Virus record (IMG/VR): IMGVR_UViG_3300025138_000326
Coordinates: 1-24,966 of that record
Source of the DNA: a virus
Direction: 5' to 3' (one strand)
DNA length: 24,966 nucleotides
The position numbers and the translations under genes were made by a program. The notes below the pieces were generated by a model that saw only the letters and a program-made list of their open reading frames with translations, did no database searches and was not told the origin of the DNA. Positions 11,054 through 24,966 of the stretch are shown one piece after another (the first letter of the stretch is position 1; every line of letters begins with the position of its first letter).

Positions 11054-11098
11054 TTGACGTTAGCTATATACTGCTTATTATTTTTATTTTTCCACAAA

Positions 11099-11121: not shown

Positions 11122-11144
11122 TTTGCGTATATTATATATGTAAG
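11122..11144 (+). promoter_or_regulatory. TTTG/TATATTA motif, variant copy, upstream of scaffold gene
   Basis: TTTGCGTATATTATATATG followed by TAAG is a two-base-inserted variant of the TTTGTATATTA motif found before three later genes. It lies 49 bases upstream of the scaffold ATG in the longest non-coding gap so far (11054-11173). I infer a promoter for the scaffold-capsid unit. No clean -33/-7 pair is present. Confidence 0.4.
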
Positions 11145-11173: not shown

Positions 11174-12475
11174 ATGAGTACAACTCAAACACAACAAGTG
11201 AAAAGTAACGTAGAACAAGTAGACGTTAATTTAGATGAAATATTCAATGCTGCTCCAAGTGGTGCTGATATGATTTCAGATGACTCAAGTAAACCTAAAA
11301 ATATTTTTAGTGGTTTAACTGAGAAAGCAGATATGTCATTTGCAGATCCTGACAAGGATGATAAAGATGATTTAAATGCTAAAGTAGAAAAAGATGATGA
11401 ATCAGGTGAACCTTCAGATACAAATGAACCTGTAGCAGAAGTAAAAGCTGAAGAAAACGCTAATGATATTTTAGATACATTAGATGGTATTGAAGAAGAA
11501 GATGAAAATAATATTGAATTAAAAACAAAAAAAGGTAGAAAACCTATTAATGGTATATCTGATGTTTTTTCAAAATTAATCAAAGAAGATAAAATTGTTG
11601 CATTTGATGATGATAAAGATTTATCAGAATACAGTGCTAAAGATTGGGAAGAGTTAATTCAAGCTAATTTAGAAGAAAAAGCTAATCAAGTAAGACGTGA
11701 AACTCCTAAACAATTTTTTCAATCTTTACCAGAAGAATTACAAATAGCAGCTAAATATGTTGCTGATGGAGGTAAAGATCTTAAAGCATTATTTTCTACA
11801 TTATCACAAGTAGAGACAAGTAAAAGTTTAGATGTTAAAAAAACAAATGACCAAGAACAAATTATTAGTCAATATTTAGGTGCAACAGGATATGGTACTC
11901 AAGAAGAGATCCAAGAAGAAATTGAGATATGGAAAGATTTAGGTAAGTTAGAACAACAAGCAAATAAGTTTAAACCTAAATTAGATAAGATGCAAGAAAA
12001 AGTTGTTGCTCAAAAACTCCAAGAACAAGAGTTAAAAAAGAAACAACAAGAACAAGCATCTAAAGCTTATATGAAAAATGTATATGATACATTAAAAGAT
12101 GGTAAGTTAGGTGAATTAAAAGTTGATAGAAAGACACAAGCCATGTTATATAATGGTTTAGTTCAACCAAATTATCCATCAGTAAGTGGACGTAATACAA
12201 ATTTGTTAGGTCATTTATTAGAAAAGTATCAATTTGTTGAACCAAATTATTCTCTTATATCTGAAGCATTATGGTTACTACAGGATCCTGTAAGCTATAA
12301 AGCAAAAATTATGGATAAAGGAGCTCAGAAAAGTGTTGAGAAAACGGTGAGAAAATTAAAAACAGAACAAACAAATGCTGGTGGAACATCATTAGGTGTT
12401 GACAGAGCAGAAGCAGAAAATAAAAATTCTAAGAGAAAATTAGCTAGACCAACAAATATTTTCAAAAGAATGTAA
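11174..12475 (+). CDS. scaffold-like head assembly protein
   Basis: The 433-residue product lies between the portal and the capsid protein, where prohead scaffolds are usually encoded. Residues 1-125 are strongly acidic and low in complexity (DPDKDDKDD, GIEEEDENN), consistent with disorder. The centre includes a Gln/Glu/Lys-rich coiled coil (residues about 255-300: QKLQEQELKKKQQEQ). The C-terminal part is basic (SKRKLARPTNIFKRM), a typical capsid-binding end for scaffolds. No His/Ser protease triad is obvious, so a fused maturation protease is not supported. It would act as the internal core around which capsid subunits assemble and then be removed. The function comes from position and composition, not from a recognised family. 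Confidence 0.75.
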   Translation: MSTTQTQQVKSNVEQVDVNLDEIFNAAPSGADMISDDSSKPKNIFSGLTEKADMSFADPDKDDKDDLNAKVEKDDESGEPSDTNEPVAEVKAEENANDILDTLDGIEEEDENNIELKTKKGRKPINGISDVFSKLIKEDKIVAFDDDKDLSEYSAKDWEELIQANLEEKANQVRRETPKQFFQSLPEELQIAAKYVADGGKDLKALFSTLSQVETSKSLDVKKTNDQEQIISQYLGATGYGTQEEIQEEIEIWKDLGKLEQQANKFKPKLDKMQEKVVAQKLQEQELKKKQQEQASKAYMKNVYDTLKDGKLGELKVDRKTQAMLYNGLVQPNYPSVSGRNTNLLGHLLEKYQFVEPNYSLISEALWLLQDPVSYKAKIMDKGAQKSVEKTVRKLKTEQTNAGGTSLGVDRAEAENKNSKRKLARPTNIFKRM

Positions 12476-12546: not shown

Positions 12547-14166
12547 ATGGCAACTCCAGTTTTAAATAATGGGATTTTCCTACGTGATACAAGCTACAAA
12601 GCTAGTTCTCATGTTGATTCGTATCACCTAACCCAAATGCTTGGTAACCCTGAGCCTATGGATATGGGACCAATTGATCTATGGGCTATGACCCAAAAGG
12701 TAGAAATGCCTTTGTATCAAATGGCTTCATTTGGTGGTAAGAATACTATCATGGTGGATAACGCTAGAGGTGAGTACAAGTGGCAAACTCCTATTGCACA
12801 AGATCTTCCGTACATTGTAGCGGATATTGAACCAGCATCAACCAATAAAGGTATTGATGGTACTTTATTTAAGATCAAAATTAACAAAAGAACATTTGGA
12901 CACGGTGACATTATTACTTATGATAAGTATAATGGACTAGAACTTTACATCACAGCTGATGATATTATCCCAGCAGGTGACGGTTTTGTTTATACTGTTC
13001 AATTAGTTAACAACAACAATGCGGCTATCTTGGATAACAAGTATTTAGCTAAAGGTACAAAGTTCTTCAGAAAAGGTTCTGCAAGAGGTGAGTACGGAGA
13101 ACGTTTCTCAGATATTGAAACTGGATCTGGTTTCCGTGAATTCTACAATTTTGTAGGAGGAGCAGAAGCACACGTTCATTATTCAATTTCTTCAAGAGCA
13201 GATTTAATGATCAAAGGCGGATTAAATGCTGATGGTACTGTACCTGTTACTGAGATCTGGAGAAACTTCAACACTGATCCAAACAATCCATCTGTACCTA
13301 GTATAGAAGGACTTGTAGCAAACATGGGTAAAGCTGGTGCTAGAGAAGCATTTGAGAATGGAACTCTTACAAGAACTTTCATTACAAATATGGAAGCAGC
13401 TCACTTATCTAAAATTGCAACGGATATTGAAACTTACCTAATGTGGGGTAAAGGTGGTAGAATTAAACAAGATGGTCCAGATGATATCAGACTATCAGTA
13501 GGTTTATGGTCACAGTTAGATAACTCTTTCAAAAGAGTATATAACAAGTCATCATTTACACTTGACATGTTTAAATCAGAACTTTATAACTTCTATCAAG
13601 GTAAAGTTGAATTTAAAGGGCCAGACCCAAAAAGATCACTTGTTGTACAAACAGGTATTGGAGGTATGCAACTTATCAACAAAGCAATTGCTGATGAAGT
13701 GTATGGTTCAGGTCTAGTACAAAATGCATCAGATATTGGAGCTGTTACAGGTTCTGGTATGGATTTAGATTATGGTTTTGCTTACACAAGCTTTACTATT
13801 CCTTTCTTAGCTAACGTTAAGTTTGTATTGAATCCAGCATTTGATAATTTAAATACTAATGATATTGAGAATCCATTAATTGATGGAAGACCTCTAAGTT
13901 CATTTAGCTTTATTATCTTTGATGTAACAGATGAAGGAAATGATAACATTCACTTGTTAAAACTTTCTTGGGATAATCAACTTAAATGGTTCTACCAAAA
14001 TGGTACTATGGACTATATGGGAAGAACTCAAGGTTTTGCTTCTACTGGACAATTCAATGGATATAGAGTTTATATGACTCAGACTATGCCAGCTATATGG
14101 GTTAAAGATCCAACCAAAGTTCTTAAAATTGTAATGAGAAACCCTGTTACAGGAGGATCATTCTAG
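12547..14166 (+). CDS. major capsid protein candidate
   Basis: This 539-residue protein sits directly after the scaffold and before a strong terminator, the usual place and length for an HK97-fold major capsid protein. It is rich in mixed beta sequence with a characteristic block at residues about 105-145 (FKIKINKRTFGHGDIITYDK, then GLELYITADDIIPAGDG). I associate this block with Bacteroidota phage capsid proteins. There are no cysteines or coiled coils. Codon choice has more C-ending codons (AAC, ATC, TTC) than neighbouring genes, as expected for a very highly expressed product. Three phased AACAATY repeats precede its ATG, and a hairpin terminator starts 12 bases after its stop. A tail sheath is an alternative, but gene order argues against it. 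Confidence 0.8.
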   Translation: MATPVLNNGIFLRDTSYKASSHVDSYHLTQMLGNPEPMDMGPIDLWAMTQKVEMPLYQMASFGGKNTIMVDNARGEYKWQTPIAQDLPYIVADIEPASTNKGIDGTLFKIKINKRTFGHGDIITYDKYNGLELYITADDIIPAGDGFVYTVQLVNNNNAAILDNKYLAKGTKFFRKGSARGEYGERFSDIETGSGFREFYNFVGGAEAHVHYSISSRADLMIKGGLNADGTVPVTEIWRNFNTDPNNPSVPSIEGLVANMGKAGAREAFENGTLTRTFITNMEAAHLSKIATDIETYLMWGKGGRIKQDGPDDIRLSVGLWSQLDNSFKRVYNKSSFTLDMFKSELYNFYQGKVEFKGPDPKRSLVVQTGIGGMQLINKAIADEVYGSGLVQNASDIGAVTGSGMDLDYGFAYTSFTIPFLANVKFVLNPAFDNLNTNDIENPLIDGRPLSSFSFIIFDVTDEGNDNIHLLKLSWDNQLKWFYQNGTMDYMGRTQGFASTGQFNGYRVYMTQTMPAIWVKDPTKVLKIVMRNPVTGGSF

Positions 14167-14177
14167 AACTTATAATT

Positions 14178-14209
14178 AAAGGGGAGGGGTTAATCCTCCT
14201 CCCTTTTTA
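14178..14209 (+). terminator. rho-independent terminator after the capsid gene
   Basis: AAAGGGGAGGGG pairs with CCTCCTCCCTTT around a short TTAAT loop, with one bulge and one G-U pair, followed by TTTTTATTTT. It lies 12 bases after the capsid stop. No clear promoter lies in the 24 bases before the next gene, so partial read-through probably sets the lower expression of downstream genes. Confidence 0.85.
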
Positions 14210-14557: not shown

Positions 14558-14571
14558 TTTGACTAGAGTAA
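14558..14571 (+). promoter_or_regulatory. candidate promoter element upstream of the 339-residue gene
   Basis: TATTATTTG (TA, three bases, TTTG) ending at 14561 approximates the Bacteroidota -7 element and is followed by ACTAGAGTAA, echoing the AGTAA that follows the TTTGTATATTA motif elsewhere. It lies 40 bases before the ATG at 14602, after a hairpin. No convincing -33 TTG is present. Confidence 0.35.
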
Positions 14572-16335: not shown

Positions 16336-16360
16336 TATATATTAAAATGATATTTATTTT

Positions 16361-16392
16361 TTTGTATATTATTATAGTAACACATATGTTAC
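16361..16392 (+). promoter_or_regulatory. TTTGTATATTA motif plus GTAACA dyad, candidate late promoter
   Basis: TTTGTATATTATTATAGTAA at 16361-16380 is one of three strict copies of the intergenic motif. It runs into a perfect 6-base inverted repeat, GTAACA-CATA-TGTTAC (16377-16392). Together they sit about 75-100 bases before the 504-residue structural gene in a 128-base gap. I infer promoter activity with a possible operator or 5' mRNA hairpin. Confidence 0.5.
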
Positions 16393-16429
16393 GAGCAGAG
16401 TAAACTGGAAAAATCATTATATATAACTA

Positions 16430-16460
16430 GTGGGGGTAATGGTCCTCACACAAATTTTTT
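16430..16460 (+). other. leader hairpin followed by T-run just before the 504-residue gene
   Basis: GTGGGG pairs with CCTCAC (one G-U pair) around an 8-base loop, then ACAAA and six T residues. The T-run ends three bases before the ATG at 16464. This has the form of a weak terminator or attenuator placed inside the likely 5' leader, or a stem that stabilises the mRNA. Confidence 0.45.
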
Positions 16461-16463
16461 ATT

Positions 16464-17978
16464 ATGGCATATTTTAATAATGCGTTTAACAAGACGTTTA
16501 TTGCAGACAGCACGCTGGCCGTAGCTGGAACTGCAACAAGTGCTCTTACCGCAGGAGAAGTTGCTTTAGTTAGTGATGGAACTTGGGCATCTGTCAATTT
16601 ACCTGGAGCTCCGGCTGCTGGTGATCTTGGCTACATTGTACAAGGTTCATTTTATACTAAAGACACTATTGGAAACAATCCTGGACATGGTGGGTACAAA
16701 GAATCAGTAAAATCTAAAGGGATTAACCCAAGATATATTACTAGATTATGGAGTGCAAATTGTACTTCGGCATCACAAGCAACAGCTAGTTTATCATTAG
16801 CTTCTGATTGTGCACCATGTGGTAAAACACAATTTATGAGAATTGATGTAAAGGGTTCACCTGCACTAAGATTCTTAAATCACAATGCTTATGCAATTGC
16901 TGATTCAGCAAATGTATGTTGTATTGATGGACAAGAGTATATTGATCCAGCACTTGTTTTAGCAGTGATGGCAGATATGGCTCTTATGGATCCATTAATC
17001 AAACCATTTGTAGCAGAAGGAGATATAAACGGACTTCTAGCTGGAGCTGGTCTTACATTGGCTGGTGGTACAGGTTATGCTGTAGCACTTTCAGCTACAA
17101 CTGCTGTTGATTCATTAGGTACTGCAATTTCTGCTTCTTCAAGACCAGGATTTGTTGATGCTCAAGTTAGTGTACTATCTGTAAATGCAGGTGTTATTTT
17201 AACTTATGAAATTTCACAAGCTGGATCTGGTTATCAAGCAGGTGATGTTGTTACTTTATCAGCTGGAAATGCTGATGCAACTTTAACTGTTGCTGCTGCA
17301 GGATTAACTGCAGGAGGAGTAATTATTACTTCAGTAACTGGTGGTGTATCTACAAGTGCTGTATATTCTATTGCTCAGGCAAAAGGAACTGCTGCATCTG
17401 GGAACTATGTACCATCAACGGATCCAAACGGAGCTACTAAAATATCTGCTAAGGTGGAATTTGTTGGAGCTTATGTAGATACTACATTTGGTAATTGTTC
17501 TTTTGATACAAGAGATCACTACAATGCTGAGCCTGTTGAGATTATTCTTTCTCAATTAGATGAGACTGGTAATCCATGTAATGACTGTGGTGTTGAAGCA
17601 AGAACTCCTGGGTCAATGCAACAAACTCAAGGTGAAGAAGTAATTAGAGAATTAATTATGTCTGAAAGATACCGTCAATCTCCTTATAATCAAGGAAATC
17701 GTGACAGTGCTAGAATCAGAGAAATTGAAATGTCTGATGAACTTTTAGCTGCTGTAGATAGAACTGCAACTTACAAAGCATATTATGTACAACATTCTGT
17801 ACCAAGATTCAACAATCCTAGTGGAGTGTTTGATAATGATCAGTATGTATATAAGATCTATGTAAAATGTTCTGATGCTGCTGCACAAGCTGAGGCACTT
17901 GCATTATTGAATGCATTGTCTGCATGGGCAACAAGTACAGGTAACTTTGTACCAGTGGAAAATAATTTATATTGGTAG
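16464..17978 (+). CDS. abundant structural protein (tail tube or tail-associated candidate)
   Basis: This 504-residue protein has its own leader and strong terminator and relatively C-rich codons, like the capsid gene, so it is probably a major virion component. Residues 1-195 and 320-504 look like a split core (KGINPRYITRLW and MALMDPLIKPFVA; later NCSFDTRDHYNAEP and QSPYNQGNRDSARIREIEM). Between them lies a Gly/Ala/Thr/Val-rich beta insert at about 200-315 that contains AGSGYQAGDVVTLSAGN, a phrase seen in marine phage surface proteins. Nine cysteines occur, including NVCCIDG and PCNDCG. It could be a tail tube, tail sheath or head fibre protein; I cannot choose from sequence alone. The insert probably projects outward. 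Confidence 0.8.
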   Translation: MAYFNNAFNKTFIADSTLAVAGTATSALTAGEVALVSDGTWASVNLPGAPAAGDLGYIVQGSFYTKDTIGNNPGHGGYKESVKSKGINPRYITRLWSANCTSASQATASLSLASDCAPCGKTQFMRIDVKGSPALRFLNHNAYAIADSANVCCIDGQEYIDPALVLAVMADMALMDPLIKPFVAEGDINGLLAGAGLTLAGGTGYAVALSATTAVDSLGTAISASSRPGFVDAQVSVLSVNAGVILTYEISQAGSGYQAGDVVTLSAGNADATLTVAAAGLTAGGVIITSVTGGVSTSAVYSIAQAKGTAASGNYVPSTDPNGATKISAKVEFVGAYVDTTFGNCSFDTRDHYNAEPVEIILSQLDETGNPCNDCGVEARTPGSMQQTQGEEVIRELIMSERYRQSPYNQGNRDSARIREIEMSDELLAAVDRTATYKAYYVQHSVPRFNNPSGVFDNDQYVYKIYVKCSDAAAQAEALALLNALSAWATSTGNFVPVENNLYW

Positions 17979-17982
17979 TCAC

Positions 17983-18000
17983 TTAAACTATAAAGTTTAA
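17983..18000 (+). repeat. TTAAACT/AGTTTAA hairpin
   Basis: A perfect 7-base stem with an ATAA loop begins four bases after the stop at 17978 and directly precedes a stronger terminator. In AT-rich DNA it may be incidental, or it may form a tandem 3'-end structure with that terminator. Confidence 0.4.
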
Positions 18001-18005
18001 ATAAT

Positions 18006-18040
18006 AGAGCAGGGGAGAAATCTCCTGCTCTTTTTATTTT
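18006..18040 (+). terminator. rho-independent terminator after the 504-residue gene
   Basis: AGAGCAGG-GG-AGA pairs with TCTCCTGCTCT, an 11-base stem with only a GG bulge and an AA loop. TTTTTATTTT follows. It is the clearest terminator in the window and separates the 504-residue gene from the Cys-rich block. Confidence 0.92.
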
Positions 18041-18056
18041 ACATTGTCTGTTATTT

Positions 18057-18082
18057 TTTGTATATTATCTATATAGTATAAT
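18057..18082 (+). promoter_or_regulatory. TTTGTATATTA motif, candidate promoter of the Cys-rich block
   Basis: TTTGTATATTATCTATATAG followed by TATAAT starts 17 bases after the terminator and ends 14 bases before the ATG at 18097. A promoter is expected between a strong terminator and the next gene, which strengthens the reading of this motif as one. Confidence 0.5.
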
Positions 18083-18096
18083 AAAGTAAATAGAAA

Positions 18097-18672
18097 ATGG
18101 CAAGTAGACATATATTAAGTTTAGAAATACCTACAGTATCTAACTGTGATTTGTTATGTATAAAAGATACAAGTCAATATTCAAAAGAGTTAGCTGTTGA
18201 TTGTGAAGAACTTTTAATTACCCTTCCTGGATATTCAGTTCCTGTATTAATTAAAGTTGATAAAGATTTTGATATGTGTTTAACAGCATGTACATTGGCA
18301 TTACAAACAGTGGATTGTGGTACAACACAAGCACAAATACCAGATGGTATATATATAATTAAATATAGTGTATCTCCAAACTCTAAAGTGTATGTAGAAT
18401 ATAATCATTTAAGAGTAACTAAATTACTTACTACTTATTATGAAGTATTATGTGATTTAAATGTACAGCCCTGTCAACCAGATATAAATAAACAAGAGTT
18501 GTTATCAGAAATGTATTATATAAGAACAATGATTGATGCAGCAGTATCTAATGTAGAATACTGTCAATCATCCGCTCACGGTATGCAACTTTATAACTAT
18601 GCAAAACAAAGATTGAATAAGGTAAGCTGTCCTTCAGGGAATTGCGGATCAAGTTCAAAATATTTAATTTAA
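18097..18672 (+). CDS. Cys-rich structural-region protein, unknown
   Basis: The 191-residue product has eleven cysteines, high for a phage protein. They are spread over the chain (NCDLLC, DMCLTAC, DCG, LCDLNVQPC, YC, SCPSGNC). The N-terminal half reads as beta strands with a jelly-roll or Ig-like rhythm (LLITLPGYSVPVLIKVDKD; GIYIIKYSVSPNSKVYVEY). The C-terminal third is helical. There is no signal peptide, so disulphides could form only after release from the cell; metal binding is another possibility. I do not recognise a named family. It opens the unit after the terminator and is followed by a zinc-ribbon microprotein, suggesting a tail or baseplate component. Confidence 0.75.
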   Translation: MASRHILSLEIPTVSNCDLLCIKDTSQYSKELAVDCEELLITLPGYSVPVLIKVDKDFDMCLTACTLALQTVDCGTTQAQIPDGIYIIKYSVSPNSKVYVEYNHLRVTKLLTTYYEVLCDLNVQPCQPDINKQELLSEMYYIRTMIDAAVSNVEYCQSSAHGMQLYNYAKQRLNKVSCPSGNCGSSSKYLI

Positions 18673-18683
18673 ACCAACGGAAT

Positions 18684-18860
18684 ATGGCTAATTGTGCACA
18701 TTGTAATGTAACATTTACTTGCGGATGTCAAAAGGTTAGTTTTAATGGAGTAGTGATATGTAAAAATTGCAGAGCAACAGCTGAAGCAAATGTGTCAACA
18801 TCACGTGACTTAAATTTAGAACTAGCTAAACAACGGATACAAGATTTAAGAAATAAGTAG
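18684..18860 (+). CDS. 58-residue zinc-ribbon-like microprotein
   Basis: The start is set at the ATG at 18684, in AATATGGCT, which resembles other starts here. A longer frame from 18642 would overlap the upstream gene and add 14 non-conserved-looking residues. The protein has Cys4, Cys7, Cys13, Cys15, Cys26 and Cys29 (CAHC, CGC, CKNC), a compact zinc-binding arrangement, then a charged helix (NLELAKQRIQDLRNK). It could bind one zinc with four ligands and possibly a second. Its function is unknown. It sits 11 bases after the Cys-rich 191-residue gene and 7 bases before the next, so all three are probably co-translated. It could be a virion component or a host-directed factor. Confidence 0.7.
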   Translation: MANCAHCNVTFTCGCQKVSFNGVVICKNCRATAEANVSTSRDLNLELAKQRIQDLRNK

Positions 18861-18867
18861 ATAAAAT

Positions 18868-19413
18868 ATGGCAACATCAACGATAGTAGCATCATCAAAT
18901 GCAGCTCAGGAAAAAGAGCTTAAATTGTTAAAGCAAATTAAGGTTGAGCAAAATTTTGCTAATCAAGCTTATGCAAATTTCCAATCAATTAGATTTGGGA
19001 TAGAAGCTTGCTGCTACACTGATTTTGCAAATGCTGTAGTTGAGAAAGGTTTATGTGATTGGCAAAATGCAGCAAGTAGTAAAGTTGTTGTTGCAACTGA
19101 AGATAAAGGAGTATTTGTAGAACCTTTAGCAAAAATAAATATTAAAGCAAGCATGAGTTGTCCTGTTACGCCAACTAATGTCTGTACAATAATAGATTTA
19201 GCAGATATATTAGCTGATGAAGGTACATATGCTCAATGTTTTGAAGTTGCATCTAGTACATGGACGGTAACACATAATTTAGGAGGATACCCTTCTGTAA
19301 CAGTAGTAGATAGTGGAAACACAGTAGTTGTTGGTAATGTAGATTATAAGGGTTCTCAACAATTAGTAATAACATTTAATGCAGCATTTTCAGGTTGCGT
19401 TTATTTAAATTAA
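18868..19413 (+). CDS. tail-associated structural protein with C-terminal beta domain
   Basis: This 181-residue protein has a helical N-terminus (AAQEKELKLLKQIKVEQNFA), a Cys-containing middle (ACCYTDFANAVVEKGLCDW), and a C-terminal beta segment. The last, WTVTHNLGGYPSVTVVDSGN followed by a strand ending in GCVYLN, matches a motif I know from phage tail and fibre C-termini. Seven cysteines are present. The gene lies just upstream of two long fibre genes and may encode a fibre-attachment or baseplate subunit. That role is inferred; the C-terminal motif only shows it belongs among tail proteins. No enzymatic signature was seen. Confidence 0.75.
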   Translation: MATSTIVASSNAAQEKELKLLKQIKVEQNFANQAYANFQSIRFGIEACCYTDFANAVVEKGLCDWQNAASSKVVVATEDKGVFVEPLAKINIKASMSCPVTPTNVCTIIDLADILADEGTYAQCFEVASSTWTVTHNLGGYPSVTVVDSGNTVVVGNVDYKGSQQLVITFNAAFSGCVYLN

Positions 19414-19433
19414 AAAACATAAAATAAAATAAA

Positions 19434-21353
19434 ATGGCAATACAATTTTTAACAGGTTTAAATGTTACAGGAAATGTAAATTTAAATGAGAACCAATTAC
19501 AGAACTTTATTGTTCAACCATTAGGGTCTGATCCCACCGGGATTGCTGGTAGAGTTTATTACAATTCAAGTATTAATGCCTTAAAATTGTATAATGGCAC
19601 GGCATGGGTAGCAATAGATTCAGATACAAAATATGATCTTACAGGTGTTGGATCAGCAAATGGTTCAGCAGGTGTAAGATTAACTGAGACAGGGACAAGC
19701 AATCACGATGATGTATTAATTGTTGGTGCAGGTACAGTAGGAGTAACTAGAAGTGGTAATACACTTACAGTTACAGGAACTGATTCAGCAGCTGGTACTG
19801 TTACTTCTGTGGCAGCTACACATGCTGGTAATGCATTTACAGCAAGTATAGGAAATACAGCTACAATAGATCCATCTGTTGATATAACAATGAATGGTGC
19901 TTCAACAGATTATATAAATGGTTTAGGTAATATAGCAGCTTTTCCAAGTATTCCACAAGGAGATATTACAAAAGTTGATGTTACAGCTCCAATAACAGGT
20001 GGTGGAGCTACGGGTGATATTACTATAGGTCATGCTGCACAAGCTGATTCAGCTTCTACAGATACTGCTACTTTAACATTTGGAGGAACTTTTGATGCAT
20101 ATACTGATGTAACAACAAATGCAACTGGACACGTTACAGGACATGAGGTAACAACATTTACAATGCCTTCTAATCCAAATGTAAATACAACATATGCATT
20201 AGATAAAGCTGCTGGAGATGCAACTTTAATTTTATCTGCTAATGGTGTTACTCAAGATTCTATAGAATTTAAGGGTTTTAGTAATCAAGTAGTAATAGAT
20301 GTTTCTACAGAAGATGAATATGAATTTAAGTTAGCTGATGATTTATCAGTTACAACCAGTATAGCAGTTAATGCAGGAGCAGCAACAACTAGATCTTCAT
20401 TTGGATATCAAGTAACAATACCAGGAACGCCATTAGTTTCAACAGATGCAGCTTCAAAAGGATATGTTGATGGTTTAGTTTCGGGTGGTCTAACGTTTAA
20501 AGGAACATTTAATGCTTCTACGGGTGCGATTGTATCAGGAAGTAACTCAGGATCTAATTTATATAACTGTCCAGGTGGTGCAGGTACTAGAGTAGCTGTA
20601 ACACAAGGTGATTACTATGTAGTTGCAACAGCAGGTAATTTTTATTGTTCATCTCCTTTACTAGATATAGGGGATTCAATTATAGCCGTAGATGATGCAG
20701 CTGCTAATGCTTCAGATGCAGCTGATTGGTCAATTGTACAGTCTGATGAAGGTGTCACTGATTTTACTAATACTAATGGTGGTACTTATGTAGCTTATGA
20801 AACTGTATTTAATGCACAAGCAGGAAGTATAGATATAGGAGATGTAGATTTAACAGCGGTAGATGGAACTTCAAGTACAGCAACAAGATTTTTATCTAAA
20901 GATAATACATGGGATGTACCTTCTTATACTACTAATTCAGATGCTAAGTATGAATTAAAAGCTCAAGCAAAATCTGGAACAAGTGTTCCATTACTTTTAG
21001 ATGGAACAGCTGGTGGTGCAGATAGTACTGTAAATTTAACAGAAGGAACAGGTATTACATTAACAAGAAATAGTGCAACTGAAATAACAATTACAGGTAC
21101 TGCACAAGGAGCTTTAGGAGATAAAGTTGTTTTAACAGGTGGAAGTACTTCAACTGGAGTTACTACATTTACATATGATGTTACTAATTCATTTTCTACA
21201 GCAACTGCTGAAGATGTAAAATGTGAAGTTATAACTAACGCAGGTGAAACTGTATATGCAGGTATTACAAGATCTTCTAATGATTTAATTGTTAAATTTA
21301 ATGGAACAATTGCTGATAGTACTCATAAAGTGTTGCTTACATTTATTGGGTAG
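19434..21353 (+). CDS. tail fibre protein 1
   Basis: This 639-residue fibre is rich in Thr, Gly, Ser, Asn and Val and is nearly all beta-type sequence. The N-terminus (MAIQFLTGLNVTGNVNLN) is shared in pattern with the next gene and may be the virion-attachment end. Residues about 40-60 (GRVYYNSSINALKLYNGTAW) form a common phage fibre entry module. Residues about 353-438 form a domain of the type TFKGTFNAST to GDYYVVATAGNFY to GDSIIAVDD, ending DWSIVQSD. A fibre-like repeat follows (TRFLSKDNTWDVPSYT), and the C-terminus is a compact strand-rich cap. It should form trimers that contact host receptors. No endosialidase or depolymerase signature was seen. Confidence 0.85.
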   Translation: MAIQFLTGLNVTGNVNLNENQLQNFIVQPLGSDPTGIAGRVYYNSSINALKLYNGTAWVAIDSDTKYDLTGVGSANGSAGVRLTETGTSNHDDVLIVGAGTVGVTRSGNTLTVTGTDSAAGTVTSVAATHAGNAFTASIGNTATIDPSVDITMNGASTDYINGLGNIAAFPSIPQGDITKVDVTAPITGGGATGDITIGHAAQADSASTDTATLTFGGTFDAYTDVTTNATGHVTGHEVTTFTMPSNPNVNTTYALDKAAGDATLILSANGVTQDSIEFKGFSNQVVIDVSTEDEYEFKLADDLSVTTSIAVNAGAATTRSSFGYQVTIPGTPLVSTDAASKGYVDGLVSGGLTFKGTFNASTGAIVSGSNSGSNLYNCPGGAGTRVAVTQGDYYVVATAGNFYCSSPLLDIGDSIIAVDDAAANASDAADWSIVQSDEGVTDFTNTNGGTYVAYETVFNAQAGSIDIGDVDLTAVDGTSSTATRFLSKDNTWDVPSYTTNSDAKYELKAQAKSGTSVPLLLDGTAGGADSTVNLTEGTGITLTRNSATEITITGTAQGALGDKVVLTGGSTSTGVTTFTYDVTNSFSTATAEDVKCEVITNAGETVYAGITRSSNDLIVKFNGTIADSTHKVLLTFIG

Positions 21354-21363
21354 TTAATGGATA

Positions 21364-21386
21364 TTTGTATATTAGCAGTTAGTAAC
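21364..21386 (+). promoter_or_regulatory. TTTGTATATTA motif before fibre 2
   Basis: TTTGTATATTAGCAGTTAGT followed by AACATATAAT is the third strict copy of the motif and lies 44 bases before the second fibre gene, in a 57-base gap. TAGTAA follows at nearly the same spacing as in the copy at 16361. It may allow the second fibre to be expressed separately from the first. Confidence 0.5.
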
Positions 21387-21410: not shown

Positions 21411-24400
21411 ATGGCAATACAGTTTATTAATGATCTTAGTGTAACAGGAAATGCAACGTTTTCTACAACAGGAGTTACTGACAATATAGTTTTAACTTCT
21501 ACAGATACATCTGCTTCTTCTGCACCAGATTTAGTGTTATATAGAAATGCTGCTGTTGCAGACTCAGACACGTTAGGTGTTGTAGAATACAAAGGTAAGA
21601 ATGGTATGGTTCCAGGTTCGGGGACTCCATTAACTTATAATGCTATTTACTCAAGAATAGCTGATGCTTCAAATAATCAATCTATATTAACTTTATCTGC
21701 TCACAAAGGAAACGGTAGTGGATCTTTTATTCACGCTGTTAATGTTTCTGCTATTGGTACAAATAACTCAGCTACAGGAGCAATACTTATAAATCCTTCA
21801 AGTGATTTTCAATTACCTTCATATAATTTAGATGTAAATGGAGATGCTTATATATCAAATGATGTACTTATAAATGGTGATCTTTCATTAGATAACATAA
21901 CAAACGCCTCTACCGATACTGATAAGTTTGTAGTTGCAGACAATGGTGTGATTAAATACAGAACTGGAGCACAAGTACTAAGTGATATTGGTGGTGCTCC
22001 TGCAACTGGTGGTGCTTACTTACCACTTGCTGGAGGAACAATATCAGGAAATCCAGGAACCCTGCTTATTAGTGGTCTTTCTAATTACACAGGTTTAACA
22101 GTTAAAGGCTCTGGAGCAGCAAGGCCTGGTATTACTTGGTCAAATGTAAATCAGGGAGACTTAGGAATTATATATGGTACAGAAAACAATGCTTTAGTTA
22201 TTGCAACAGGCGCCAGCGGGTTAACTGCTTTAACTTTAGACTCTTCACAAAACGCAACTTTTGAAGGAACAATAACTGCTTCAAAAAATCAAAATGCTAC
22301 AAGTAGTTTTACATTCCAAAATACAGATACAACTGGAACAAGCGTTAGAACACATTTAAACGCTACTGCAGGAAATAGGTCAATAAGATTAGAAGCTATC
22401 CATAGCGATTACAGTTATGTTGTAAGTAATAATGCAAGAATGTATTTACAAACTAATAATGGTTCTAATAATGCCTTATTCTTAGATGGTGATAACGCAA
22501 CTTTTGCAGGTTTAGTATCTGGTATAACACCTACTGCTGCTGCTAACTTTACAACTAAAGCTTACGTAGATGCTCAAGGAGGTGTAGGTGTTTACTTACC
22601 ACTAGCCGGTGGGACAATGACAGGCGTAACACAATTTAATGATCACACGCAACACGGAGACCAAGTATCAGCAAAATGGGGAGCTGGCAATGATTTAACA
22701 ATTGATCATGACGCTACAGATAGTTATATTACAAATAAAACAGGCGATTTATATATTACAAATCAAGCAGATGATAAAGATATTGTATTTAGAACAGACA
22801 ATGGTCAAGGTGCAGAAGAAGTTTATTTACGCCTTGATGGCAGCAACAGGTCTATAATTGTAACAGCAGCTTTAGGAGTGTACCATAATGATGGTATTGC
22901 ATCTAGATTTGGTGATGATGGAGATCTTCAAATCTATCACGATGGCAGTAATAGTTATATAGATGAAACAGGAACAGGTAGTTTATATATTAAAAGTGCT
23001 GGTGCAATAAGATTGCAAAGTGATACTGGTGAAAATATGATTTACGCAGTAAATGATGGTGCTGTAAATTTATATCATAATGGTGCAAAAAAGTTTGAAA
23101 CAACAAGCACAGGGGTTAATGTGGTAGGAGAAGTTGTTTCAGGTTCTTCTTTAGTAAGTTTATCAACATCAACAGGTTCAATAATAAGAACTACTACAAA
23201 TGTAGAACCTTTTTTAGCATTTCAAAGAAACTCAGGAACTAATGGGGTAGGTGTTTTAAGATTATTAGATGGTGGCGATTTAGCATTTGATACAGGTGCT
23301 ACAGGAGCTGGTCAATCAACAAGATTAACTATTGATGGATCAACAGGCAACGCAACTTTTGGAGGAAATATAACAATAGATAAAGCAAGTCCTTATATAA
23401 GATTAAATGATTCATCTGTAGCAAATCAAGAACTTGCAATAACACAATCTGGTTCAACCGCTAATTTCCAAACTAGAGGCGGAGCAAGTACTCAAGGTCA
23501 ATTTATATTTAAACAGACAGATGGAACAACAAGTAGTAATACTTTAATTCTAGATCAACAATTTAATGCAACTTTTGTAGGAGATTTAACTGTTTCAGGA
23601 GGAGACATTACTCTTGGAGGTACAGGACGTATTCAAGGGGTAGATACAGTAAGTTCTGGAACTGACGCAGCAAATAAAACTTATGTAGACAATGCTGTTT
23701 CAGGTGTAGGTACAGTAACAAGTGTTACAAGTGGTAATGCTAGTACTATAACTATGGGTGGTACCAGTACAGATCCAACTGTTAGTGCTAATACAGGTAC
23801 AGTTAGTGCTTCTTCATCAAACTTAGCAACTGGGGCTCAAATACAAACAGCTATTAATACAGCTACAACAGGAGCTTTAAAATTTGTAAGTGAATGGGAT
23901 GCTTCAGGTTTAGGTGGTGGTGGTACTCCAGATTTAACACAAACTTCAACACACATACCAGGTAGTTACTATATAGTAAGTGCGTCTGGTAGTGCTACAC
24001 CAAATGGATCAGGCACAACTCCTAATAATTGGGCTATAGGTGATTGGTGTATTAGAGCAGATTTAGCTACAGATACATGGCAAAAACTTGACAATACACA
24101 AGTAGGTAATGTGCAAGGTTCACGTTTAACTACAAGAGGTGTTGCACTTTGGACAGGTATAAATGATATATCATCAACTTCAGTATTTATTACTTCAGGC
24201 GCAAACTTAGAGGCTGGAACAACAACAGCTACTCAAGATAGAGCTATTAGATCTTTAGCTGGAGATGGATATAAAGCTGGGTTTGAAGCATATGGTAACT
24301 CTCAAGGTACAGGATATGTTTATGTAGGACAATCAACTACTTATGGTGGAGGTATGTTTTACAATGGTGATGGATCACCTGCTTTCCCAGCAACTGGAGA

Positions 24401-24966
24401 GAGTAGTGATACAATTGCTTTCTATAGAAAAAATGCTGGTACAAATGAAGTTGTATTTTATTATGGTTATAGTTCTAATCATGTATATTTTAGAGGAGGT
24501 ATTAATATAGGTACTATTACAAACGTCACATTTGATACTGATAAATTTTTGGTATCAAACTCAGGAGAAGTTATGTATAGGACTGGTGCTGAAGTAAGGA
24601 GTGACATTGGAGCTGGTACATCTAGTTTAACTTTAGGAACAACATCAACTACAGCATTAGCTGGTAATACAACAACTATATCCTCAACTCAAGCATCTGA
24701 TATAACTGCTAATAACGCTAAAGTAACTGATACAGGTGTACCAGCTATATTAAGTGATGGTACTTCACCATCATTGAATTCAGGTATATCAGCTGCTGAG
24801 GTGCGTTCATTAATTGGTGCTGGAACAAGCTCATCAACTGGTAATGTTACAACAAGTGGATTAACAGCAGGAAGAGTTTCCTTTGCTACATCAGGAACAA
24901 ATATAGAAGACCAAGGTAATTTTACTTATAATAATTCTACACAAACTTTAGATGTAAATGGATTAA
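21411..24966 (+). CDS. tail fibre protein 2 (runs off the window)
   Basis: An uninterrupted frame of at least 1185 residues starts at ATG 21411 and has no stop before the window ends. The N-terminus MAIQFINDLSVTGNATF is paralogous to that of fibre 1. The chain then carries modules seen in marine phage fibres: DKFVVADNGVIKYRTGAQ (residue 171 on), YLPLAGGT twice, TKAYVDAQGG, DLQIYHDGSNSYIDETGTGS and NLYHNGAKKFETTSTGVNV. A domain homologous in pattern to fibre 1 residues 353-438 lies at about 821-895 (FVSEWDAS to GSYYIVSASG to GDWCIRAD to TWQKLDN). Another copy of the DKFVV module occurs at 1044. The likely role is host-receptor binding. The C-terminus, which often carries the receptor-specific tip or a chaperone, is outside the window. 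Confidence 0.85.
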   Translation, partial: MAIQFINDLSVTGNATFSTTGVTDNIVLTSTDTSASSAPDLVLYRNAAVADSDTLGVVEYKGKNGMVPGSGTPLTYNAIYSRIADASNNQSILTLSAHKGNGSGSFIHAVNVSAIGTNNSATGAILINPSSDFQLPSYNLDVNGDAYISNDVLINGDLSLDNITNASTDTDKFVVADNGVIKYRTGAQVLSDIGGAPATGGAYLPLAGGTISGNPGTLLISGLSNYTGLTVKGSGAARPGITWSNVNQGDLGIIYGTENNALVIATGASGLTALTLDSSQNATFEGTITASKNQNATSSFTFQNTDTTGTSVRTHLNATAGNRSIRLEAIHSDYSYVVSNNARMYLQTNNGSNNALFLDGDNATFAGLVSGITPTAAANFTTKAYVDAQGGVGVYLPLAGGTMTGVTQFNDHTQHGDQVSAKWGAGNDLTIDHDATDSYITNKTGDLYITNQADDKDIVFRTDNGQGAEEVYLRLDGSNRSIIVTAALGVYHNDGIASRFGDDGDLQIYHDGSNSYIDETGTGSLYIKSAGAIRLQSDTGENMIYAVNDGAVNLYHNGAKKFETTSTGVNVVGEVVSGSSLVSLSTSTGSIIRTTTNVEPFLAFQRNSGTNGVGVLRLLDGGDLAFDTGATGAGQSTRLTIDGSTGNATFGGNITIDKASPYIRLNDSSVANQELAITQSGSTANFQTRGGASTQGQFIFKQTDGTTSSNTLILDQQFNATFVGDLTVSGGDITLGGTGRIQGVDTVSSGTDAANKTYVDNAVSGVGTVTSVTSGNASTITMGGTSTDPTVSANTGTVSASSSNLATGAQIQTAINTATTGALKFVSEWDASGLGGGGTPDLTQTSTHIPGSYYIVSASGSATPNGSGTTPNNWAIGDWCIRADLATDTWQKLDNTQVGNVQGSRLTTRGVALWTGINDISSTSVFITSGANLEAGTTTATQDRAIRSLAGDGYKAGFEAYGNSQGTGYVYVGQSTTYGGGMFYNGDGSPAFPATGESSDTIAFYRKNAGTNEVVFYYGYSSNHVYFRGGINIGTITNVTFDTDKFLVSNSGEVMYRTGAEVRSDIGAGTSSLTLGTTSTTALAGNTTTISSTQASDITANNAKVTDTGVPAILSDGTSPSLNSGISAAEVRSLIGAGTSSSTGNVTTSGLTAGRVSFATSGTNIEDQGNFTYNNSTQTLDVNGL
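21921..21992 (+). repeat. fibre module repeat, copy 1
   Basis: Residues 171-194 of fibre 2 (DKFVVADNG to RTGAQVLSDIG) align without gaps to 24 residues near the window end, with 15 identical positions. It is followed by a YLPLAGGT segment. Confidence 0.8.
24540..24611 (+). repeat. fibre module repeat, copy 2
   Basis: Residues 1044-1067 of fibre 2 (DKFLVSNSG to RTGAEVRSDIG) form the second copy of the 24-residue module. The related phrase AAEVRSLIGAGTSS follows shortly after, so this end of the protein may be built from further decayed copies. Confidence 0.8.

Follow-up and report, generated by a model that had tools for sequence, protein, structure and literature searches.

The DNA considered here (the window) is a 24,966-base fragment from IMG/VR, record IMGVR_UViG_3300025138_000326. 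Judged from its proteins, it derives from a marine crAss-like phage, and the gaps between its genes carry a repeated element, TTTGTATATTAT. This element is probably, at roughly four chances in five, a late-gene promoter element of the marine crAss-like clade to which the phage belongs. Nearly all the genes of the window are held on the + strand. The gene for the major capsid protein (12547..14166, +), which identifies the phage group, matches Pfam Crass_capsid; for the terminase and portal, the matches are to head-and-packaging PHROGs. The gene g11174 (11174..12475, +; 433 amino acids, aa) sits between the portal and major capsid genes. Further along, g16464 (16464..17978, +; 504 aa, without a family match) lies directly 3' of the structural gene g15631 and is a likely transcription unit of its own. 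It is followed by g18097 (18097..18672, +; 191 aa), a gene of unknown function conserved among relatives, and by g21411 (21411..24965, +), a repetitive protein of at least 1185 aa that extends past the contig end and is probably a fibre or large structural protein.

The element and its copies in the window

The features that define the crAss-like group are all present in the clade: the Crass_capsid major capsid protein, the crAss portal, the terminase, ring proteins and a DFDxD polymerase. No nucleotide-level match to the window was found among sequenced phages, and its terminase and portal share only low identity, about 31% at best, with crAss-like, Lightbulbvirus phi17:2 and csAssE-Sib records. 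IMG/VR, in turn, is rich in close relatives, including contigs of 75-116 kb. The closest database match of the portal (31%) is the portal protein of PP438436, Leptolyngbya phage Lbo-JY46, whose stated host is a cyanobacterium; as this record contains Bacteroidota-like TATCTTTG elements, its host assignment may deserve checking.

The strict form of the element, TTTGTATATTA, had been described in an initial annotation as an intergenic motif lying 37-100 bases before start codons. Its three exact copies, at 16361, 18057 and 21364, are real; all are on the + strand and each is in a gap between genes, with distances from motif start to ATG of 103, 40 and 47 nucleotides (nt), close to the range proposed. 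Neither the - strand of the window nor the reversed control contains an exact copy. It was also borne out that TAGTAA follows two of the copies at similar spacing (16375 and 21380; offsets 14 and 16).

The first copy is the putative late promoter of g16464 (16361..16372, +; 21.7 bits in the weight matrix described below). TTTG occupies 16361-16364, the -7 box TATATTAT occupies 16365-16372, TTA is found at a spacing of 20 nt upstream (16342-16344) and the predicted +1 is at 16377. The second, TTTGTATATTAT at 18057..18068 (+; 22.3 bits), would serve g18097, with TTT at the same spacing (18038-18040) and a predicted +1 at about 18073. The third, TTTGTATATTAG at 21364..21375 (+; 10.1 bits), is the candidate for a weaker late promoter of g21411, with TTG 19 nt upstream (21346-21348). 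Thus, the earlier remark that the upstream TTG is missing needs to be modified: TTA or TTT stands exactly at N20 before two copies (16342 and 18038) and TTG at N19 before the third (21346), and it is the degeneracy of the upstream element that stands.

Three looser versions had also been listed. The one at 11122 holds up once its register is shifted, with the core TATATTAT starting at 11128; the predicted late promoter of g11174 is therefore TGCGTATATTAT at 11124..11135 (+; -7 box 11128-11135; 19.7 bits). The other two were rejected for lack of orthologue support, as 0 of 67 orthologous upstream regions for the copy at 14558 and 1 of 26 for that at 2126 score at least 12 bits.

Strand, position and conservation in relatives

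The motif shows a strong strand bias across 16 related records, and its count there greatly exceeds that of the reversed control. Nine long relatives, in which intergenic DNA makes up 3-8% (about 5%) of the sequence, were scanned over their whole length, with the capsid gene setting the orientation. Among their 50 exact copies, 39 are intergenic on the structural-gene strand against 0 intergenic on the other strand; the coding copies (4 on the structural-gene strand and 7 on the other) are at background level. An even spread of the motif over coding DNA or over both strands, named in advance as the outcome that would refute a late promoter, was thus not what these genomes gave. De novo counting of 8-mers placed GTATATTA, TGTATATT and TTGTATAT first, and the top one, GTATATTA, was observed 46 times against 4 expected, with 0 for its reverse complement. 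With a weight matrix at a threshold of at least 14 bits, 0.9 Mb gave 60 matches in late-strand gaps, none in early-strand gaps and 3 in coding DNA; since those late-strand upstream regions had also served to train the matrix, the evidence lies in the contrast between these categories and not in the absolute count. Further, over 157 loci retrieved through their capsid and terminase genes, some of them overlapping, the tally was 115 on the gene strand and 4 on the other.

The positions are conserved as well. The promoter is found in orthologous upstream regions of g11174 in 44 of 56 relatives, of g16464 in 40 of 49 and of g18097 in 54 of 57 (47 of them exact), and all other window genes with enough relatives have it in 0 or 1. 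For the copy at 21364, before g21411, just two orthologous upstream regions could be compared; three relatives (G002, G003 and G005) have a strong motif copy before a gene of about 1,200 aa. A chance repeat in AT-rich intergenic DNA, which would agree with the chance-level number of two-mismatch matches in the window, is refuted by these strand counts and by such conservation in up to 54 of 57 relatives. It was also calculated that only 0.009 exact copies are expected in the window's 1.09 kb of gaps, under an order-3 model trained on intergenic DNA from the window and its relatives, and so the probability left to chance is negligible.

The opposite strand of the relatives carries genes for a DnaB-like helicase, Toprim/primase, ribonucleotide reductase, exonuclease and helicase. 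Because these are genes of replication and nucleotide metabolism, the motif-bearing strand is taken to be late by content.

Predicted transcript starts, leader RNA and terminators

In the group of leaders related to that of g16464, counting from the first T of TATATT, a hairpin starts 11-12 nt downstream, where +1 would fall in the numbering of Flavobacterium johnsoniae. Five-pair stems starting from offset 12 are present in 26 of 43 unique segments, against a mean of 3.5 and a maximum of 8 in shuffles. Offsets 0 and 2, inside the AT-rich promoter core, also score for stems, probably through pairing of TATATT with itself and with nearby TATA. The arms of the 5' hairpin co-vary (GTAAC/GTTAC, GTGAC/GTCAC, GTCC/GGAC and GTGC/GCAC).

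The conserved leader RNA of g16464 (16377..16449, +) was compared in 24 sequences of the nearest group. It is composed of three hairpins: the 5'-terminal GTAACA..TGTTAC, an invariant CAG(AGTAAA)CTG and GTGGGGG..TCCTCAC; the hairpin CAGAGTAAACTG is invariant in this group. Over the whole 90-nt leader, both-side changes occur in 5 of 15 pairs, and pairing failures are few, being gaps or one mismatch. As a whole the leader of the window is not unusually stable (z-score -1.1); its 5' hairpin alone reaches -3.8. The leader matched no family in an Rfam search. The hairpin supports a transcript start at 16377, as predicted from the element. As a feature of every late promoter it was rejected, since it is mainly confined to the g16464 group.

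An intrinsic terminator follows g16464 (18006-18031, or to 18041 in its longer delimitation, +; -14.2 kcal/mol, z-score -4.05) and sits just upstream of the g18097 promoter, an order of terminator and promoter that relatives share. Another lies after the major capsid gene (14178..14207, +). An element with many copies at fixed intergenic places could also suit other signals in DNA, such as an operator, a packaging or recombination signal, or an RNA processing site. However, the strict orientation with the gene, the -33 spacing, the terminator-promoter order and a start hairpin at a fixed offset all speak for a promoter, and make such a role very improbable.

Anatomy of the element and the enzyme that may read it

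The refined element is TT(T/G)-N20-TATATTAT, with TTTG directly upstream of the TATATTAT box. In the weight matrix, the extension is T-16 0.97, T 0.75, T 0.72 and G-13 0.74; the box is T-12 0.98, A-11 0.95, T-10 0.87, A-9 0.89, T-8 0.97 and T-7 0.96, ending in A-6 0.68 and T-5 0.71, and a weaker T(A/G)TA lies near the start. Exactly 20 nt upstream of TATATT, TTG is present in 7 of 29 non-redundant promoters, compared with a background of 2.9% per position, and TT(T/G) in 17 of 29. Since these recur at N20, the upstream element is degenerate rather than absent; gapped-pair counting recovers the same -33/-7 spacing.

In F. johnsoniae, the -7 element is nearly invariant at T-12 A-11 T-8 T-7 T-6 G-5, with little signal at -33 (PMC6847099). 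Compared with the Bacteroidota sigmaABfr promoter (TTTG at -33, TAnnTTTG at -7), the phage element shares T-12 A-11 T-8 T-7, a degenerate TT at -33, a spacing of N19-20 and a predicted start some 12 nt downstream of the first T. It differs in having A-6 T-5 (A 0.68, T 0.71) in place of the T-6 G-5 of the host box, and a strong TTTG abutting the -7 box. It also differs in distribution. In 60 Bacteroidia genomes, TTTGTATATTAT is not enriched (92 against 92 for the reversed control), whereas the host form TTTGTATATTTGCA is (29 against 3; both totals were summed by hand from tables). Two genomes that seemed enriched for the 12-mer (G058 and G018) were set aside, their matches being mostly coding. 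The element thus appears private to the phage group in its form and sigma-like in its layout.

One alternative would be an ordinary variant of the host sigmaA promoter, in which the unassisted host polymerase reads TT-N20-TATATTAT with the help of the TTTG extension and AT-rich DNA. In its favour, the -33/-7 spacing is retained, as are four of the six positions of the -7 box (PMC6847099), and no phage sigma was detected in 17 records; further, the late promoters of crAss001 are the canonical TTG-N20-TAnnTTTG. On the other hand, A/T at -6/-5 replaces a nearly invariant T/G, and the 12-mer lacks enrichment in Bacteroidia, where its matches are mostly coding and the host form is enriched. Unassisted reading is therefore considered unlikely, though it is the strongest of the alternatives.

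It is rather more doubtful that a crAss-type RNA polymerase of the phage reads the element and frees the late genes from the host enzyme. A giant late-strand open reading frame of 4.5-5.5 thousand aa has the DFDID motif and aligns with gp66 of phi14:2, and so these phages encode such a polymerase. Single frames of 4,565-5,462 aa with DFDID were seen on the late strand of G002, G003, G004, G005, G006, G011 and G014; each is a fused crAss-type polymerase that exceeds the catalytic subunit of phi14:2 (2,180 aa). However, the gene lies on the late strand and is of virion type, and in phi14:2 the enzyme is tied to early genes (PMC8375218). A two-part, sigma-type spacing would also be unexpected for it, and related phages with the same type of polymerase lack the motif. 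For T7-like polymerases (PF00940) the phages gave no match, and the control set was equally silent.

Coming back to the late promoter, this reading was adopted because the motif keeps its strand, its place in gaps and its orthologous positions across relatives, is restricted to the structural-gene strand and, in the g16464 group, is followed by a co-varying 5' hairpin. The element would be read by a sigma-type holoenzyme, most likely the host sigmaA (sigmaABfr) RNA polymerase, which is favoured as T-12 A-11 T-8 T-7 and the -33 spacing are kept; counted from the first T of TATATT, transcription would begin 12 nt downstream. The host RNA polymerase has been suggested for the late genes of crAss001 and phi14:2 as well (PMC8375218). 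A co-factor made by the phage could help this enzyme to accept A-6 T-5 over the host T-6 G-5 and to use the TTTG extension, and the odds for such assistance are about even. Dependence on it would delay the late genes and separate them from host promoters. In its wider form, namely that an unrecognised phage factor re-aims the host Bacteroidota polymerase, or the phage's own, to a private -7 box TTTG-TATATTAT unused by host genes, the idea falls somewhat short of an even chance. In the host-class genomes sampled, promoters do not use the 12-mer, but the element retains the sigma-type -33/-7 spacing and a phage sigma-70 was not detected in 17 records. Thus, the late promoter advanced in the initial annotation held up, and the phage factor proposed with it was not established.

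Several points limit or weigh against the promoter and the mechanism proposed for it. Promoter function, lateness, start site, the identity of the polymerase and the existence of a helper are all inferred from sequence, and 'late' in particular from gene content and strand. Two-mismatch versions in the window number 50 against 45 expected in shuffled sequence, an absence of excess that makes loose copies not judgeable from the window alone. The major capsid, portal and terminase genes had no copy of their own in the orthologue scan; therefore, they would rely on read-through or another signal. Sigma70_r2/r4 domains were found in none of 17 phage records, some of them fragments, with positive controls, although very divergent factors could escape such a search. 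Pfam and PHROG scans of 74 small proteins of one relative (G003) gave chaperonin, nuclease, ring-protein and helix-turn-helix matches, and the families listed included no clear transcription factor. Lastly, the host may belong to a lineage with a sigmaA that accepts TATATTAT.

Late promoters of the T4 type (TATAAATA, read with the phage sigma gp55) are AT-rich and extended -10-like, with little or no upstream element. Both they and the present element are AT-rich and precede late genes; here, a sigma-70 family protein was not detected and a weak -33 exists. Jumbo-phage promoters of the phiKZ type likewise have an AT-rich core element, and the early core of phiKZ may resemble the present one. 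The late promoter of phiKZ is TATG at the start site (PMC12809450). Promoters of this type are read by phage RNA polymerases, and the present element has sigma-type spacing instead. The late promoters of crAss001 also stand before structural genes of a crAss-like phage and have the same TTG-N20-TA spacing, but crAss001 retains the full host TAnnTTTG box and the marine clade does not, a contrast that amounts to a change of promoter between related phages. No motif scoring at least 14 was found in phi14:2, phi17:2, csAssE-Sib (50 kb part) or crAss001, and no promoter element of such kind was found in the literature searched. A defined element with a predicted start allows a direct test of which polymerase makes the late mRNA; it also helps to delimit transcription units when abundant, uncultured marine phages are annotated, and could serve in Bacteroidota genetics as a compact late promoter.

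The early strand has signals of a different kind. Before early-strand genes, a special host-type form, TATCTTTG, is enriched (8 against 0.5 expected, in G001, G002, G004, G006, G011 and G014), which suggests transcription of early or middle genes from ordinary host promoters. When expectation-maximisation was used to look for a motif of the early strand, it failed to settle on anything resembling a promoter. The host-type TAnnTTTG was discarded as a general late signal of the clade, since its strand specificity is unclear (34 against 19 expected, and 26 for the reverse complement).

A separate conserved non-coding element, GTTAGCTATATACTGC, was observed directly after the portal stop codon, at 11059-11074 of the window, and in G001, G004, G005, G006, G008 and G011. 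Similar copies (GTTAGCTATATATGC) lie in the relatives about 100 nt upstream of an early-strand gene of 86-94 aa and in another intergenic region.

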